Of a DNA stretch of 64,000 nucleotides, positions 17,697 to 22,711 are shown one piece after another (position 1 is the stretch's first letter; the number at the start of each line of letters is the position of its first letter). This DNA is from Marinomonas pollencensis. GTDB taxonomy: Bacteria > Pseudomonadota > Gammaproteobacteria > Pseudomonadales > Marinomonadaceae. A program made the translations under genes and the position numbers. Below the pieces are notes generated by a model that saw only the letters and a program-made list of their open reading frames with translations, searched no databases and was not told the DNA's origin. Location: NCBI RefSeq assembly GCF_003387375.1, contig NZ_QUNG01000008.1:62001-126000 (forward strand), read 5' to 3'.

Positions 17697-18737
17697 TTAG
17701 GGTTGGTTAGTAAGCCAGTTGAAGAGCTTGCTGACGGCTTGTTGAGACCAGTCCTCTGCCGCTTTACCCTCAGCACTTTGCGGGTTTTTATCTATGCCTC
17801 GAGCCCTGACAGTCCAAGAGGCTAAGTGGCGTTGGTCGGCTCCAATCAACGACAAAGTTCCTTCTTGAAAGACATAATACCGACCCTGTTGCATTTGCGT
17901 ATGGTGGGAGGTTTTAGAGGTCAAGGTGAACACTGCATCCTGCTTCGCTGTTAATCCATATTGGGACAACTCACTGGCCAATAAATCGCTTTGCTCCGTG
18001 CCAGAGACATCAAAACCAAACTGATTCAAAGCCTGGTTGAGTTGTTGCTCAGTCGCCTGCAACGACTTGTCAGCACGGCCTAACAATGCCGCTTGAGTCG
18101 AGTATAGGTTCAGTTCATCTTGGTAATTTTTACGTTGTGCAAATAACGGTATTAAGCGCATGTAGGTGCGCCAATCTTGTTGTGCTGCCGTTTGATCAGG
18201 CGATGTGGATAAACTTGCTGCTGCGCTGCGTATCTTATCGTCGGTGTCTTTTAGAGCCTCGGTTAATTTCGCGATAATACGTTGGCGATCAATAGATTGC
18301 AGAACATAAACGTAATCGTCACCGGCAAAACGTTGTTCATTGACGGTTTGTTCTAATTCAATCGGGGCGGTTTTGACTTGGGTGTACGCGCTTTGCACCC
18401 GTATGACTTGTTCATTTTGACCGCTGGTCGAAGACACCTGAGTGTCTTGGGTATTGAGCTGACTGACCTGAGTGCGTAACTGCTGGGCTATTTGCGCATT
18501 GCCGTTTTGTTCAGCCTGAGCGAAAGCAAGGGCAAGGTTATCTATCCTAGGAGCACTGCCAACCCCATAAAGATGCGAGCGATCGCTGGGTGGCGATAGC
18601 ACCCAATCAGGTACCTTGGTAGGGTCAGTCTGAGCGCTCTGAAAATCAGGCAGTGAGCTGATACAGCCAGATAAAACGGTGGCGCTCAACGCCACCAATG
18701 CCCAGTTTAAAGGACGAAACAAGCTAGCCTTTTTCAT
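17697..18737 (-). CDS. LPP20-family lipoprotein
   Basis: 346 residues. The N-terminus is a lipoprotein signal with lipobox LSGC at ~22-25. The next segment, PDWVLSPPSDRSHLYGVGSA, is typical of LPP20-like proteins, followed by a long helical, Gln/Ser-rich middle and a C-terminal domain (~250-340). Probable outer-membrane lipoprotein of unknown function. It is last in the set COG3014-like / LpoB-like / LPP20-like, starting 2 bp after the lpoB-like gene stops, so surely cotranscribed with it. Confidence 0.82.
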   Translation of the reverse strand: MKKASLFRPLNWALVALSATVLSGCISSLPDFQSAQTDPTKVPDWVLSPPSDRSHLYGVGSAPRIDNLALAFAQAEQNGNAQIAQQLRTQVSQLNTQDTQVSSTSGQNEQVIRVQSAYTQVKTAPIELEQTVNEQRFAGDDYVYVLQSIDRQRIIAKLTEALKDTDDKIRSAAASLSTSPDQTAAQQDWRTYMRLIPLFAQRKNYQDELNLYSTQAALLGRADKSLQATEQQLNQALNQFGFDVSGTEQSDLLASELSQYGLTAKQDAVFTLTSKTSHHTQMQQGRYYVFQEGTLSLIGADQRHLASWTVRARGIDKNPQSAEGKAAEDWSQQAVSKLFNWLTNQP

Positions 18738-18739
18738 GG

Positions 18740-19342
18740 TTAGAAGAAACCGCCTTTAGTTGCCAGTTTCTTGATTTTCTTCTGACCATTCCAGACTTCA
18801 CGATTGGTGGTCATGTTGATCAGTTTCAGGTCCACTTGATAAAAGGTGACTCGCTCATCGCCGTTTGAATCGACAATTGAGTTTATGGTGCCGGATAAGG
18901 CAAAGCCTGCCCCTTGTTCCAGCCCGAATTTGGCGACGGTATCTGGAGCGGCATTCATTTCTTGGTCGCTTCGTTCGGTACGAATGTCTTCGCGCTCTTC
19001 ACCAGAGACCACAAAATCAACTTTGCCAGCGCGCAATAAGCTGCGTTTGATGTCGTTTACAAAGGTGTCGACAGGAATGTGCTCTGAGCTTTTATTGCGA
19101 ATGGTTTGAATAATGACGGTTGGATTGCCTTTGTTAGAGAAATTGTAATCTCGGTACCAAGGGAAACTCAACATATCATTGATCATGGCGTCGGCGACTA
19201 ATTTAGAGTCGATGTCGTTCCAGCGATCAGACACGGCCACCTCTTTGTCCGTATCGATTCGCTTAACGCTGCCTGAGCAAGCTACCAGGGTAACGGCGAG
19301 CAGTACCACAATTAAATGTTTCCATTGAGCTAATATGCGCAT
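18740..19342 (-). CDS. LpoB-like penicillin-binding-protein activator lipoprotein
   Basis: 200 residues with signal peptide and lipobox VACS (~19-22). The rest matches the LpoB/YcfM fold: NPTVIIQTIRNKSSEHIPVD, a short variable segment, and a C-terminal ALSGTINSIVDSNGDERVTF and REVWNGQKKIKK. LpoB of E. coli activates PBP1B from the outer membrane. This copy has no long proline-rich linker, so it may serve another partner. It sits between two other lipoprotein genes. Confidence 0.82.
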   Translation of the reverse strand: MRILAQWKHLIVVLLAVTLVACSGSVKRIDTDKEVAVSDRWNDIDSKLVADAMINDMLSFPWYRDYNFSNKGNPTVIIQTIRNKSSEHIPVDTFVNDIKRSLLRAGKVDFVVSGEEREDIRTERSDQEMNAAPDTVAKFGLEQGAGFALSGTINSIVDSNGDERVTFYQVDLKLINMTTNREVWNGQKKIKKLATKGGFF

Positions 19343-19396: not shown

Positions 19397-21073
19397 TTAG
19401 TTTGGGTTACGTAAGTTCCATACTTTTATTTCATTGGGCTGTAAGACTATTTGACCCAATGAGAAGTCTTTATTGTCGACCGCATAATGAGGGTCATAGG
19501 TCGCGGCCCGCAATGGCTTGCGGGTTAAACGTACTTGGGCAGGTAAGGTTAGCCAGTTACGGGTATCCGCAGCAGATGAAGCAAAAACAGAGACTTGGCC
19601 AAGTAAACTGAGTATCAAGCTAGCAGTGTCATCATCCACGCTGCGGGCGACGCGATCTGCCAACCAGCTGCGTAATAACTCCCGTACCAAGCCTTCATAG
19701 ATGTCTCGTTGGGCCTCAAAAAGCTGCTCTTGAACGGCGATATCCGCCAACGAAGTCATGCGAATGGTTTGACTAGAATGCGCCTCCTGACTGCTCCCTT
19801 TAAGATCCAATATAGGCGTTTGGTGATCGAGTGTAAAACGGCGGTAATAAGGCACAGTAACGCGAATAAACTGCTGCGTCAGTAAGCTGTCTAGGTGGGC
19901 TTGCTTTAGCTGACTCCAAACCCCAGAGCCGACAATAACGCGTTTGGTGAACACGCCACCAATGGCCCCCCAAGCGCCGCCAGCTTTGTAGTTGGCGAGC
20001 AAATTCAATGGGTTAATATCGGAATAGACCATGGTAAACCAGCGATAAGCGTCGCTTTGTTGCTGGTGGCTGCCACCCACTAGTGGTTGTAATACCAAGG
20101 AGTAAGCGCGCGGGTCCGCATACAGGCGCAATGACATTTCACTTTTGTCTGGTATAAAGCCTTGGTGCTCTAAAATAACCAGTTCTGCATCATCTTGCTG
20201 GTAGCTGGCGAGTAGGGTTTGCATCGCTGGGGAGAGCTTAGCCTTGATCAGCTTGTTGATCTCATCTTGGCTCCAGCCGCTACCTTTACGCATCATGCGA
20301 ATGGTGTCCAACCAGGCCCGTTCAGCGGTCATGTCTGACAGACCATACTGTTTGGCATAACCTGCTTCATAGAGTTTGGCGGCATCTTGATAGCTAATGC
20401 GAGCGTCGTCGTATTGCTTGCTGATCTCATATTGCAAGCCTTCTACATAACGCGCCCAAGCATCGTCTCGATAGGCGTATTCTGCGGTGCTGCGACCGCC
20501 ATTGTAAAAGTTGCCAAGCCAGCTGAGCGCCTTCATGTAAAAGGCTTGATCTTGCTTAGCGTTGAGATCGTCGTAAGTGGGTTTTTGTGCTTGAATTTCA
20601 TTGAGCTTGTTGTCGATACGGCGCGCTTCGACCAAGGCTGAGTCACGCAATTTATCCCGTTGTTCTCGGTTATCTGCTTGCTCTGACAAGGCGAGGTAAT
20701 TGAGCGATTTTAGGTAGCTGATGTAGATGCGTTCTAAGCCACTGCCATGATAATTTTCTTGTCTTGGATTAGTGAGCAATGCCCAAGCACGGTTCTTAAA
20801 GCTTTTTGGAAAGAAGGTGTCGCTGAGTTGATCGGCTTGTTCGAGTAAGCGGTTACTGCGTTGATAATCGCCTTGGTTTTGTGCCAGAGCGCCGACTTCA
20901 AGAAGGTACAGTAATTGATCTTGGGGAGAGTCTTGCAATACATCAGTGAATTGGCTTTCGGCTTTTTTCCAGTCACCTTGCTTGGCCAGAGAGAGGCCTT
21001 GATCGATTTCCTGCTGGTAGGTCGCACACCCGCTTAGCAAGAGAAATGTCACGCAAAGAATAGCCCACTTCAA
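19397..21073 (-). CDS. COG3014-like TPR lipoprotein
   Basis: 558 residues starting at a TTG codon (21073) with AGGA 8 nt upstream; the product begins MKWAILCVTFLLLSGCATYQ, an ideal lipoprotein signal, and no ATG fits better. Residues ~20-110 look like tetratricopeptide repeats (GLSLAKQGDWKKAESQFTDV), followed by a long conserved domain of unknown function. Such proteins travel with LpoB-like and LPP20-like lipoproteins in other gammaproteobacteria, suggesting a shared envelope role. Gap to the lpoB-like gene is 54 bp. Confidence 0.8.
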   Translation of the reverse strand: MKWAILCVTFLLLSGCATYQQEIDQGLSLAKQGDWKKAESQFTDVLQDSPQDQLLYLLEVGALAQNQGDYQRSNRLLEQADQLSDTFFPKSFKNRAWALLTNPRQENYHGSGLERIYISYLKSLNYLALSEQADNREQRDKLRDSALVEARRIDNKLNEIQAQKPTYDDLNAKQDQAFYMKALSWLGNFYNGGRSTAEYAYRDDAWARYVEGLQYEISKQYDDARISYQDAAKLYEAGYAKQYGLSDMTAERAWLDTIRMMRKGSGWSQDEINKLIKAKLSPAMQTLLASYQQDDAELVILEHQGFIPDKSEMSLRLYADPRAYSLVLQPLVGGSHQQQSDAYRWFTMVYSDINPLNLLANYKAGGAWGAIGGVFTKRVIVGSGVWSQLKQAHLDSLLTQQFIRVTVPYYRRFTLDHQTPILDLKGSSQEAHSSQTIRMTSLADIAVQEQLFEAQRDIYEGLVRELLRSWLADRVARSVDDDTASLILSLLGQVSVFASSAADTRNWLTLPAQVRLTRKPLRAATYDPHYAVDNKDFSLGQIVLQPNEIKVWNLRNPN

Positions 21074-21075
21074 GA

Positions 21076-21201
21076 TTAGTGTCCTGTGCCTAGAAACTGG
21101 TTAATAAACAGTACCCCAACTAATGCCATGCAAGCTAGGTAAAGTAAAATCCAGCGCGCTTTCAGACAATAGGGGCAAGGTTTTTTCTTCTTTTTCGTCA
21201 T
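21076..21201 (-). CDS. 41-aa membrane miniprotein with CPYC motif
   Basis: ATG 21201 to TAA 21076. The product starts MTKKKKKPCPYCLKARWILL, followed by a hydrophobic helix (LYLACMALVGVLFINQFL) and a short GTGH tail. A pentalysine N-terminus followed by one TM helix predicts N-in membrane insertion; CPYC is the glutaredoxin-type or a metal-binding CxxC. Its stop is 2 bp before the TTG start of the COG3014-like gene, so it would be translationally coupled and first of the lipoprotein operon. No strong ribosome site is visible. Not recognised; too short for routine gene callers. Confidence 0.6.
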   Translation of the reverse strand: MTKKKKKPCPYCLKARWILLYLACMALVGVLFINQFLGTGH

Positions 21202-21263
21202 GCTAGGTAAATGCCAAGTTAAGAGTCACGGAGGGTGTCTTTGTTCACTCTACTATGCCACAA

Positions 21264-21288
21264 AAAAGGAGGCACATGGCCTCCTTTT
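21264..21288 (-). terminator. secB transcript terminator
   Basis: AAAAGGAGGC and GCCTCCTTTT form a perfect 10-bp stem with a 5-nt loop, 24 bp beyond secB; read on the minus strand it is followed by a T-run. Confidence 0.85.
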
Positions 21289-21311: not shown

Positions 21312-21791
21312 CTATTGTGTTGTGGCTGTTTCTGCTTGTTGCTTCTGAAGATTTTCTAAATACAGAGCATCAAAGTTGATAGGCGCTAGCATCACCGCAG
21401 GGAAGCTGCCTTTGACGATTGTCGCATCAACATTTTCACGAGCATAAGGGAACAAGGTTGCAGGGCAGAAAGCGCCTAGTGCGTGATGCAATTGTTGGTC
21501 GTCGAGACCCGCAATAACAAACAAACCACCTTGTTGAACTTGTACTAGGTACGCTGGCTCATTGGCATTTTTGACGTTCAAGGTGATGTCTAACACGACT
21601 TCATAAACGCTTTCGCCGACTTGACGGCTGCGAGTGTTCAATTCCATAGCAACTTCTGGTTGCCATTCTTCTTGGAACACCATAGGGGAACGTGGTGACT
21701 CAAAAGAAATGTCTTTTAGAAATACGCGTTGTAAAGACAGCTGAGGACCTTGTTCTTCTTGGTTTACTGCCGCTTCGTTGTTATCAGCCAT
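21312..21791 (-). CDS. secB: Protein-export chaperone SecB
   Basis: 159 residues matching SecB in length and motifs (LQRVFLKDISFESPRSP, VVLDITLNVKN, LFPYARENVDATIVKGSFPA, LAPINFDALYL). Tetrameric cytosolic chaperone that holds preproteins unfolded and passes them to SecA. The gene order yibN-grxC-secB on one strand is the conserved enterobacterial one. Acidic N-terminus; start ATG 21791. Confidence 0.97.
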   Translation of the reverse strand: MADNNEAAVNQEEQGPQLSLQRVFLKDISFESPRSPMVFQEEWQPEVAMELNTRSRQVGESVYEVVLDITLNVKNANEPAYLVQVQQGGLFVIAGLDDQQLHHALGAFCPATLFPYARENVDATIVKGSFPAVMLAPINFDALYLENLQKQQAETATTQ

Positions 21792-21883: not shown

Positions 21884-22138
21884 TTAGCCAGCTAGAAGCG
21901 CATCCAGTTTTTGTTCACGCTCTAACGCAAACAAGTCGTCACAACCACCAACGTGTTGTTCACCGATCCAAATTTGAGGAACAGTATGACGACCGCTTTT
22001 TTCCATCATTTCTTGGCGTACTTTTGGTTGTCCGTCGACACGAATCTCGTTGAAGGCAACCTGCTTCATGTTAAGCAATTGCTTTGCACGAGTGCAGAAC
22101 GGACAGTAGTCACTAGAGTAAAGGGTTACTGTAGCCAT
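21884..22138 (-). CDS. grxC: Glutaredoxin 3
   Basis: 84 residues, thioredoxin fold with dithiol active site YCPFC (C12, C15), cis-proline region HTVPQIWIGEQHVGGCDDLF that binds glutathione. Reduces disulfides and glutathione mixed disulfides in the cytosol. Between yibN and secB, spacing 11 bp to yibN. Confidence 0.96.
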   Translation of the reverse strand: MATVTLYSSDYCPFCTRAKQLLNMKQVAFNEIRVDGQPKVRQEMMEKSGRHTVPQIWIGEQHVGGCDDLFALEREQKLDALLAG

Positions 22139-22149
22139 AATAATCTCTC

Positions 22150-22572
22150 TTATTTCTTCACTAAAGGAAGGTTAGATGACTGCCATTCAGCGATGCCGCC
22201 TTGCAGTTTAAATACCTTGCTAAAGCCTGCTTTTTTCAGCTCTTTCGAACTTGGGCCCGAGTGAATGCCAGATTTGCATACTACAATAATAGGGTCGTTT
22301 TTGTGCTTCTCAAGCTTTGTTAAACTGCTTTTAATCTTAGTTGCAGGAATATTCATTGCACCAGTAATAAAGCCAGTTTTGAACTCTTTTTCTGGGCGAA
22401 TATCAAGAATCACAGCGTCTTCTGTGTTCATAAGATTGGTTGCAGCAGAAGGTGTTAAGCCTTGTGGACCGCCTTTGGTTTCGGAGAAAATCAAGGTGGC
22501 TAGGACAGCTAAAAATACTGCGACCATTTCCCAGTGGTTAGTCGCAAATTCAATAATTTGATTCATCATCAT
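22150..22572 (-). CDS. yibN: Membrane-anchored rhodanese-like protein (YibN family)
   Basis: 140 residues from the first of three consecutive ATG codons (22572; 22569 and 22566 are equally possible); the frame extends further but the family begins here (MNQIIEFATNHWEM). One N-terminal TM helix (~12-30), then a rhodanese domain with VILDIRPEKEF and active-site loop VVCKSGIHSG, GGIAEW. The sulfurtransferase substrate is unknown. Upstream of grxC-secB in one transcription unit. Confidence 0.88.
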   Translation of the reverse strand: MMMNQIIEFATNHWEMVAVFLAVLATLIFSETKGGPQGLTPSAATNLMNTEDAVILDIRPEKEFKTGFITGAMNIPATKIKSSLTKLEKHKNDPIIVVCKSGIHSGPSSKELKKAGFSKVFKLQGGIAEWQSSNLPLVKK

Positions 22573-22711
22573 AACGGTAAGACCTGTAAAAAAACTGCCA
22601 GCATTATACACGGCCAGCTTGGCGGGTACATACTCCTTATATACGGATCTGAATTCTGTTAAAAAGTTTCCTACTGCGTTGGCGAGTTAGAGGTAAAAGA
22701 GCATGGTTAAT

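Follow-up and report, generated by a model that had tools for sequence, protein, structure and literature searches.

A conserved single-helix membrane miniprotein with an invariant CxxC-Arg motif in Marinomonas and related families, possibly a dithiol redox module of the cytoplasmic face

Introduction

How should one understand a frame of a few dozen codons lodged between secB and a lipoprotein gene? This is the question raised by a locus of Marinomonas pollencensis, where such a frame might be a chance reading of intergenic DNA, a leader that regulates the gene behind it, an accessory of the neighbouring lipoproteins, or a small membrane protein whose chemistry depends on its own cysteines. 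We address it here by comparing the frame, its predicted product and its surroundings across related genomes, starting from the window, that is, the whole stretch of 64,000 nucleotides of DNA that was analysed.

Results

A short gene conserved throughout the genus

The features of the locus are the following:

21076..21201, minus strand: miniprotein gene, ATG to TAA (genus conservation, purifying selection)
21166..21177, minus strand: codons of the C9-P-Y-C12 dithiol motif (both cysteines in 34/34 distinct genus and 76/76 family sequences)
21154..21156, minus strand: codon of Arg16, the CXXC+4 position (Arg in 76/76 sequences)
21094..21153, minus strand: predicted single transmembrane helix, W17 to F36 (hydrophobicity and AlphaFold helix)
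21262..21288, minus strand: terminator-like hairpin and T-run 3' of secB, between secB and the miniprotein gene (fold z-score -2.57)
19397..21073, minus strand: COG3014-like lipoprotein (TPR by Pfam), TTG start, the linked gene downstream
18740..19342, minus strand: LpoB-like lipoprotein (PF13036)
17697..18737, minus strand: LPP20-like lipoprotein (PF02169)
21312..21791, minus strand: secB, upstream (PF02556)
21884..22138, minus strand: grxC, glutaredoxin 3, upstream (TIGR02181)
22150..22611, minus strand: rhodanese-domain protein, upstream (PF00581)

On the minus strand, the frame runs from an ATG at 21201 to a TAA ending at 21076 and encodes 41 amino acids, MTKKKKKPCPYCLKARWILLYLACMALVGVLFINQFLGTGH; the plus strand over 21076..21201 is broken by stops. 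The order of elements is rhodanese, grxC, secB, terminator-like hairpin, miniprotein and lipoprotein trio. A similar GC hairpin with a T-run is seen by eye upstream of the miniprotein in most genus loci; the hairpin at 21262..21288 is absent from the output of the terminator scan, and the promoter scan returned nothing immediately 5' of the miniprotein gene. A CATAAT-like box is visible 3' of the T-run in the genus alignment (visual inspection only). The Shine-Dalgarno sequence of the M. pollencensis copy appears weak by eye, and that of many relatives good.

A first conservation search covered 56 related genomes and matched the miniprotein, free of internal stops, in every genome of the same genus (35/35, its own included; E 3e-12 or better). 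Later draws added four genus genomes that carry it (G201, G222, G242, G748), and, going by contig names, 36 of 37 loci belong to Marinomonas and the remaining one to Maribrevibacterium. In all 595 genus pairs pN is below pS, the median dN/dS is 0.15 over the 94 pairs with usable pS, and codons vary least at second and most at third positions. Judged from these patterns, the ORF is a genuine protein-coding gene under purifying selection: the 41-aa frame claimed in the preliminary description is indeed present at 21201..21076 on the minus strand, and all 35 genus copies are undisrupted. A chance ORF is excluded by this genus-wide presence without internal stops combined with purifying selection.

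Nine columns are invariant among the 34 distinct genus sequences (K5, K7, C9, C12, R16, W17, C24, L31 and F36). The CPYC motif singled out at first proves conserved in its cysteines, which are always kept, but not in its letters, since CPYC accounts for just 18 of the 34 sequences, next to 15 with CPNC and one with CQNC. Similarly, the pentalysine head is real as a basic run, but its composition is 4-5 Lys/Arg, interrupted once by Asn (L004).

A family defined by CxxCxxxR ahead of one helix

Neither Pfam nor NCBIfam returned a model specific to the protein. Among the open-licence PMC papers listed in literature searches, none describes such a family in its title or the start of its abstract. 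Relatives were sought with profiles at increasing depth. The genus profile matched 37 of 244 genomes of the order at E<=0.01, ten of them from the genus, a count that includes some true DsbBs and some chance matches. With a wider profile, 93 of 390 genomes were matched; at E<=1e-6 there were 54, comprising 18 genus genomes and 36 from six other families, 11 of these 36 having themselves supplied a sequence to the profile. Seven wider-profile matches above E 1e-4 were read (L183-L187, L191, L192). The class draw gave matches in 24 of 303 genomes (E<=0.01), and 15 of the 23 outside the window's own genome were translated (16 loci, including L214): three from f112 (E 1e-11 to 7e-8) and two fusions from f97 (4e-6, 6e-5) are clear, L207 of f185 (E 0.005) is a plausible relative, and the remaining translated matches are full DsbBs or apparently due to chance. 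At phylum level 7 of 249 genomes matched, including three genus genomes and one from f185 (2e-5), and of the four matches outside the genus the f185 one was read (L230).

Apart from the fusions, the relatives read are short ORFs of about 31-54 aa with script-chosen starts, plus one 72-aa frame whose start is uncertain, and all have the same layout, with CxxCxxxR between a basic head and a single hydrophobic stretch. The family alignment (A3) leaves out the near-duplicates L048, L049, L056, L184 and L190 as well as L192, judged a chance match though motif-bearing; the weak genus-profile matches L058, L061, L063 and L066 were set aside by eye, along with full DsbBs. CxxCxxxR precedes one hydrophobic helix in all 76 distinct sequences compared, and C9, C12 and R16 are the sole invariant columns of the alignment. 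Trp follows the Arg in 58 of 76 sequences, Gly never comes directly after the second Cys (76/76), and 74 of 76 have no charged residue within 16 residues past the Arg. The third cysteine, C24, is a feature of the genus and varies across the wider family.

Are genus and distant members homologous beyond this motif? Against a profile of distant members, 24 of 34 genus sequences beat their core-shuffled controls, and 12 of 42 did so in the reverse comparison; with whole-tail shuffles the figures rise to 34/34 and 25/42. These cross-profile results, where related sequences count as separate as in all our shuffle tests, favour homology without proving it.

Membrane topology and natural fusions

The single transmembrane helix proposed at the outset is supported by one hydrophobic stretch and by an AlphaFold model built from a 6-sequence alignment, which predicts one helix over residues 10-38 (mean pLDDT 81.0). 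Charge is strongly asymmetric, with a mean net value of +5.68 up to the Arg versus +0.20 past the helix, and none of the 76 sequences is an exception. Natural fusions also bear on the orientation. At L182 (about 3.4-4.2 kb, minus strand), head and helix are fused in frame to an aspartyl-protease domain (PF13650), which at the sister locus L179 forms a separate downstream gene with its own signal-peptide-like start. At L198, a SCO1/SenC domain (PF02630) comes after a CxxCxxxRY head and helix; a protein with this head is found in all four genomes searched from that order (L231, L232, L233, L234), L198, L226:3199-3834 and L231 being one gene, and two Sco paralogues of the order (L235, L236) lack it. 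Aspartyl-protease and SCO1/SenC domains are normally periplasmic, so the CxxC should face the cytoplasm. An N-terminus inside and a C-terminus in the periplasm, with the CxxC on the cytoplasmic face, is therefore a very probable arrangement, apparently opposite to that of the DsbB CxxC.

Thiol and sulfur genes in the vicinity

Several lineages place genes of thiol or sulfur metabolism close to the miniprotein. In the window, grxC and the rhodanese gene lie upstream, the terminator-like hairpin standing between secB/grxC and the miniprotein. In family f38, a glutaredoxin-like gene is found downstream in 12 of 12 fetched loci, scoring over the Pfam glutaredoxin cut-off in L163 and L176 and under it in L158; most of these loci also have a signal peptidase I gene on the upstream side (by eye; Pfam-confirmed in L158). 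The f38 glutaredoxin-like protein (L163:4294-4659 and other loci) carries FCRSCPSS instead of the usual CPYC site. The neighbour in f6 is a hydrolase that we take to be YheT-like, present in 19 of 54 loci, those of f38 included; L177 of f6 has a glutaredoxin-like gene in its place, and in L036 of f6 TusA is two genes on from the miniprotein. Just upstream in f6 there is also a gene (L165:3448-3987, L086:6163-6714) for a conserved protein of 179-183 aa that has a hydrophobic stretch near its N-terminus and exceeds the cut-off of no Pfam family. In f112, DsrE/DsrF/DsrH/DsrC-type genes are two genes away at L227 (Pfam-confirmed), and at L228 and L229 the miniprotein is directly convergent with a DsrC-like gene (by eye). 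No thiol or sulfur gene adjoins the miniprotein by eye in the loci of f28, f37, f45, f46 and f47, and in f28 a glutaredoxin/GST-domain gene lies about 2 kb off. Picked out post hoc and often not in the same operon, such neighbours are suggestive only.

A redox dithiol or a metal site

Our best reading, offered tentatively, is a membrane-anchored dithiol redox module of the cytoplasmic face. Its Lys/Arg-rich N-terminus would lie in the cytoplasm and its C-terminus in the periplasm, placing the CxxC dithiol at the cytoplasmic start of the helix and the Arg one turn later. The CxxC could then cycle between dithiol and disulfide at the membrane surface, with the Arg tuning the second cysteine. The reductant may be the cytoplasmic glutaredoxin/glutathione system, a guess from the neighbours, and the module might either pass its redox state to a membrane partner or act as a small electron-transfer site; more speculatively, the quinone pool could serve as oxidant, a role that it has for the CxxC-Arg of DsbB. 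In support of redox chemistry, Cys, Cys and Arg are spaced as the CxxC and R48 of DsbB in 76 of 76 sequences.

Metal binding by a dimer would suit a CxxC near the membrane just as well. The main rival reading, possible though on the unlikely side, is that two chains lie side by side and use their four cysteines to bind Zn(II), Cu(I) or an Fe-S centre where the helices meet the membrane surface, which would make the protein a metal-dependent dimer, sensor or carrier. Each chain contributes two invariant cysteines and a single helix able to dimerise; CPxC is found in zinc sites, and the CxxCxxxRY-helix head sits on SCO1/SenC, a copper-linked family, in 4/4 genomes of one order. Yet the family alignment shows no further invariant ligand, be it Cys, His or acidic, and CxxCG, the usual zinc knuckle, does not occur. 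Many basic residues beside the cysteines disfavour cation binding, and a metal site leaves the invariant Arg at +4 unaccounted for. A redox dithiol is the best fit for three invariant residues placed where a lone helix begins on the cytoplasmic side, with no zinc-knuckle glycine, and we put a redox rather than a metal role at a little under an even chance.

Resemblance to the second helix of DsbB

The nearest Pfam/NCBIfam match is to a short piece of DsbB, the CxxC-Arg plus TM2. Pfam DsbB (PF02600) matches residues 7-31 of the window protein over 25 of 148 model positions, with a score of 22.2 bits, the cut-off being 22.1; the same match falls under the cut-off in the genome search (20.2 bits), another genus member scores 19.7 bits, and E<=0.1 is reached by 15 of the 48 family members. 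The genome has a full-length DsbB of its own at G000:C8:130078-130527, about 4 kb past the window end (143.6 bits).

We compared the family with two sets of DsbBs, the first of which (12 sequences, A4) came mostly through likeness to the miniprotein, a bias that affects both its hhalign values (86.4% for the broad family, 95.5% for the genus) and its shuffle results. With helix cores shuffled, the genus score against these 12 dropped from 21.7 to 10.7 bits (34/34 at p<0.05), and that of distant members from 5.8 to 4.6 (2/42 at 0.05; 7/42 under a looser control). Thirty Pfam-fetched DsbBs gave the same picture, with genus scores falling from 16.1 to 9.6 bits (34/34 beating controls) and distant members from 7.5 to 6.2 (4/42). 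In the converse comparison with the genus profile, 10 of the 12 TM2 segments from the first DsbB set and 22 of the 30 from the Pfam-fetched set outscored their controls; with the distant-member profile, 4 of 12 and 6 of 30 did so. From these differing core-shuffle outcomes, the genus resembles DsbB TM2 beyond the motif and distant members hardly do so.

Might the miniprotein then be a DsbB fragment, made up of the CxxC and TM2, that has been taken over as a one-helix subunit and docks on DsbB itself or on some other thiol enzyme with four helices? The success of TM2 segments against the genus profile speaks for such an origin, as does a GCFAL-like stretch that the miniprotein has in common with some DsbBs. 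The predicted topology is opposite, however, distant members are little like DsbB past the motif, and short hydrophobic segments may converge, so that we regard it as improbable.

According to PMC11208910, R48 of DsbB, at CXXC+4, stabilises the thiolate-quinone complex, and its mutants are poor at quinone binding and reduction; R48 is also mentioned in PMC6752827 and PMC3839904. By analogy, a quinone link is conceivable but unlikely for the miniprotein, and slightly less likely still is its full form: a single-helix family with a minimal DsbB quinone-reacting site on the cytoplasmic face, working as a one-helix thiol-quinone redox switch or sensor that would link the quinone pool, by electron exchange, to glutaredoxin or sulfur-relay thiols of the cytoplasm. 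Against DsbB-like chemistry stands the lone helix, with neither the four-helix quinone pocket nor a second Cys pair.

Independence from the lipoprotein genes

As first described, the TAA of the miniprotein gene ends 2 bp ahead of a TTG, which is located at 21073. This TTG opens an ORF of 558 aa that is lipoprotein-like, with a hydrophobic start ending LSGC. Only TPR repeats pass the Pfam cut-off in it; the name COG3014 is the label of the earlier sequence reading, and a search of open-licence PMC papers for the word COG3014 found no paper. Of 35 genus loci, 31 have COG3014 next to the miniprotein. Our stop-start script scored 26 of these 35 (five of the nine it missed, L012 and L031-L034, do carry COG3014), and in 24 of the 26 the stop codon of the miniprotein is almost adjacent to the following start or overlaps it (median offset 1 nt); the other two lie at 44 nt. 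The suggested coupling to the lipoprotein gene is thus plausible in these 24 loci, but an obligate link fails. The genome-wide co-occurrence search, which covered COG3014 from the COG3014-LpoB-LPP20 set, gave no match at E<=1e-10 for six of the 38 genomes of the genus (G003, G014, G016, G030, G222, G242), and all six retain the miniprotein. The transporter genes (judged by eye to be of TRAP type) that in the window adjoin the lipoprotein trio have the miniprotein gene directly beyond them at L073, L074 and L088. Relatives in other families adjoin genes other than COG3014. At L077:6124-7025, transposase-like ORFs (by eye) stand just upstream of an intact miniprotein gene. The miniprotein is shown by these distributions to be independent of the COG3014 lipoprotein genes.

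The preliminary description had envisaged a partner of the lipoprotein set, and a redox or structural partner co-expressed with COG3014, LpoB and LPP20 would agree with the tight stop-start spacing and frequent adjacency. It is nonetheless very improbable given the six genomes that keep the miniprotein without detectable COG3014, the other neighbours elsewhere, and a CxxC predicted to be cytoplasmic where mature lipoproteins are not; an obligate partner role is largely refuted. The other early suggestion, a leader ORF whose translation merely regulates the downstream lipoprotein gene, would suit a short frame placed just upstream of starts that are mostly GTG or TTG in genus loci, but is hardly credible with selection acting on the cysteines and Arg at the amino-acid level and the miniprotein kept where the downstream gene is lost.

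Discussion

A gene of about 40 codons, present genus-wide and with relatives across the order, keeps an invariant Cys-Cys-Arg under strong selection and has no model in the two libraries scanned. Were its cytoplasmic-side CxxC-Arg to react with quinone, it would constitute a very small link from respiration to cytoplasmic thiols. Should it prove to be no more than a metal binder, the analysis still maps a conserved family of miniproteins with clear residues to test.

Among known systems, glutaredoxins share the CPYC letters, and glutaredoxin-like genes are near in some lineages, but a single helix has no room for a thioredoxin fold and CPYC becomes CPNC, CKRC, CRFC and others in the relatives; membership is ruled out by the single helix and by the lack of a match of the window protein to Pfam glutaredoxin PF00462. 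MgrB (47 aa) is likewise under 50 aa with one transmembrane helix; it acts on PhoQ, and its cysteines are periplasmic. The size and single helix of small bitopic regulators, which act on a membrane partner, are both found here. In zinc-hook and zinc-clasp proteins a metal is held by CxxC pairs from two chains; the miniprotein has two conserved Cys per chain. VKOR also has a CXXC at a helix start with a +4 residue, which according to PMC11208910 is needed for de novo disulfide formation and is often Tyr, Trp or Ala; it has four helices against one here, and no VKOR family was among the Pfam/NCBIfam matches of the miniprotein. DsbB comes closest, with PCxxC where a helix begins, Arg at CXXC+4 and a local profile match. 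Unlike DsbB, however, which has four helices, the miniprotein has one predicted helix in 41 aa; its only cysteines are C9, C12 and C24, without the second, DsbA-reactive periplasmic pair; and its CxxC is predicted by charge bias and fusions to be cytoplasmic, that of DsbB being periplasmic. Membership of DsbB fails on helix number and the missing pair, and the miniprotein would best be described as a bitopic membrane protein of small size whose DsbB-like site is predicted to face the opposite side of the membrane.
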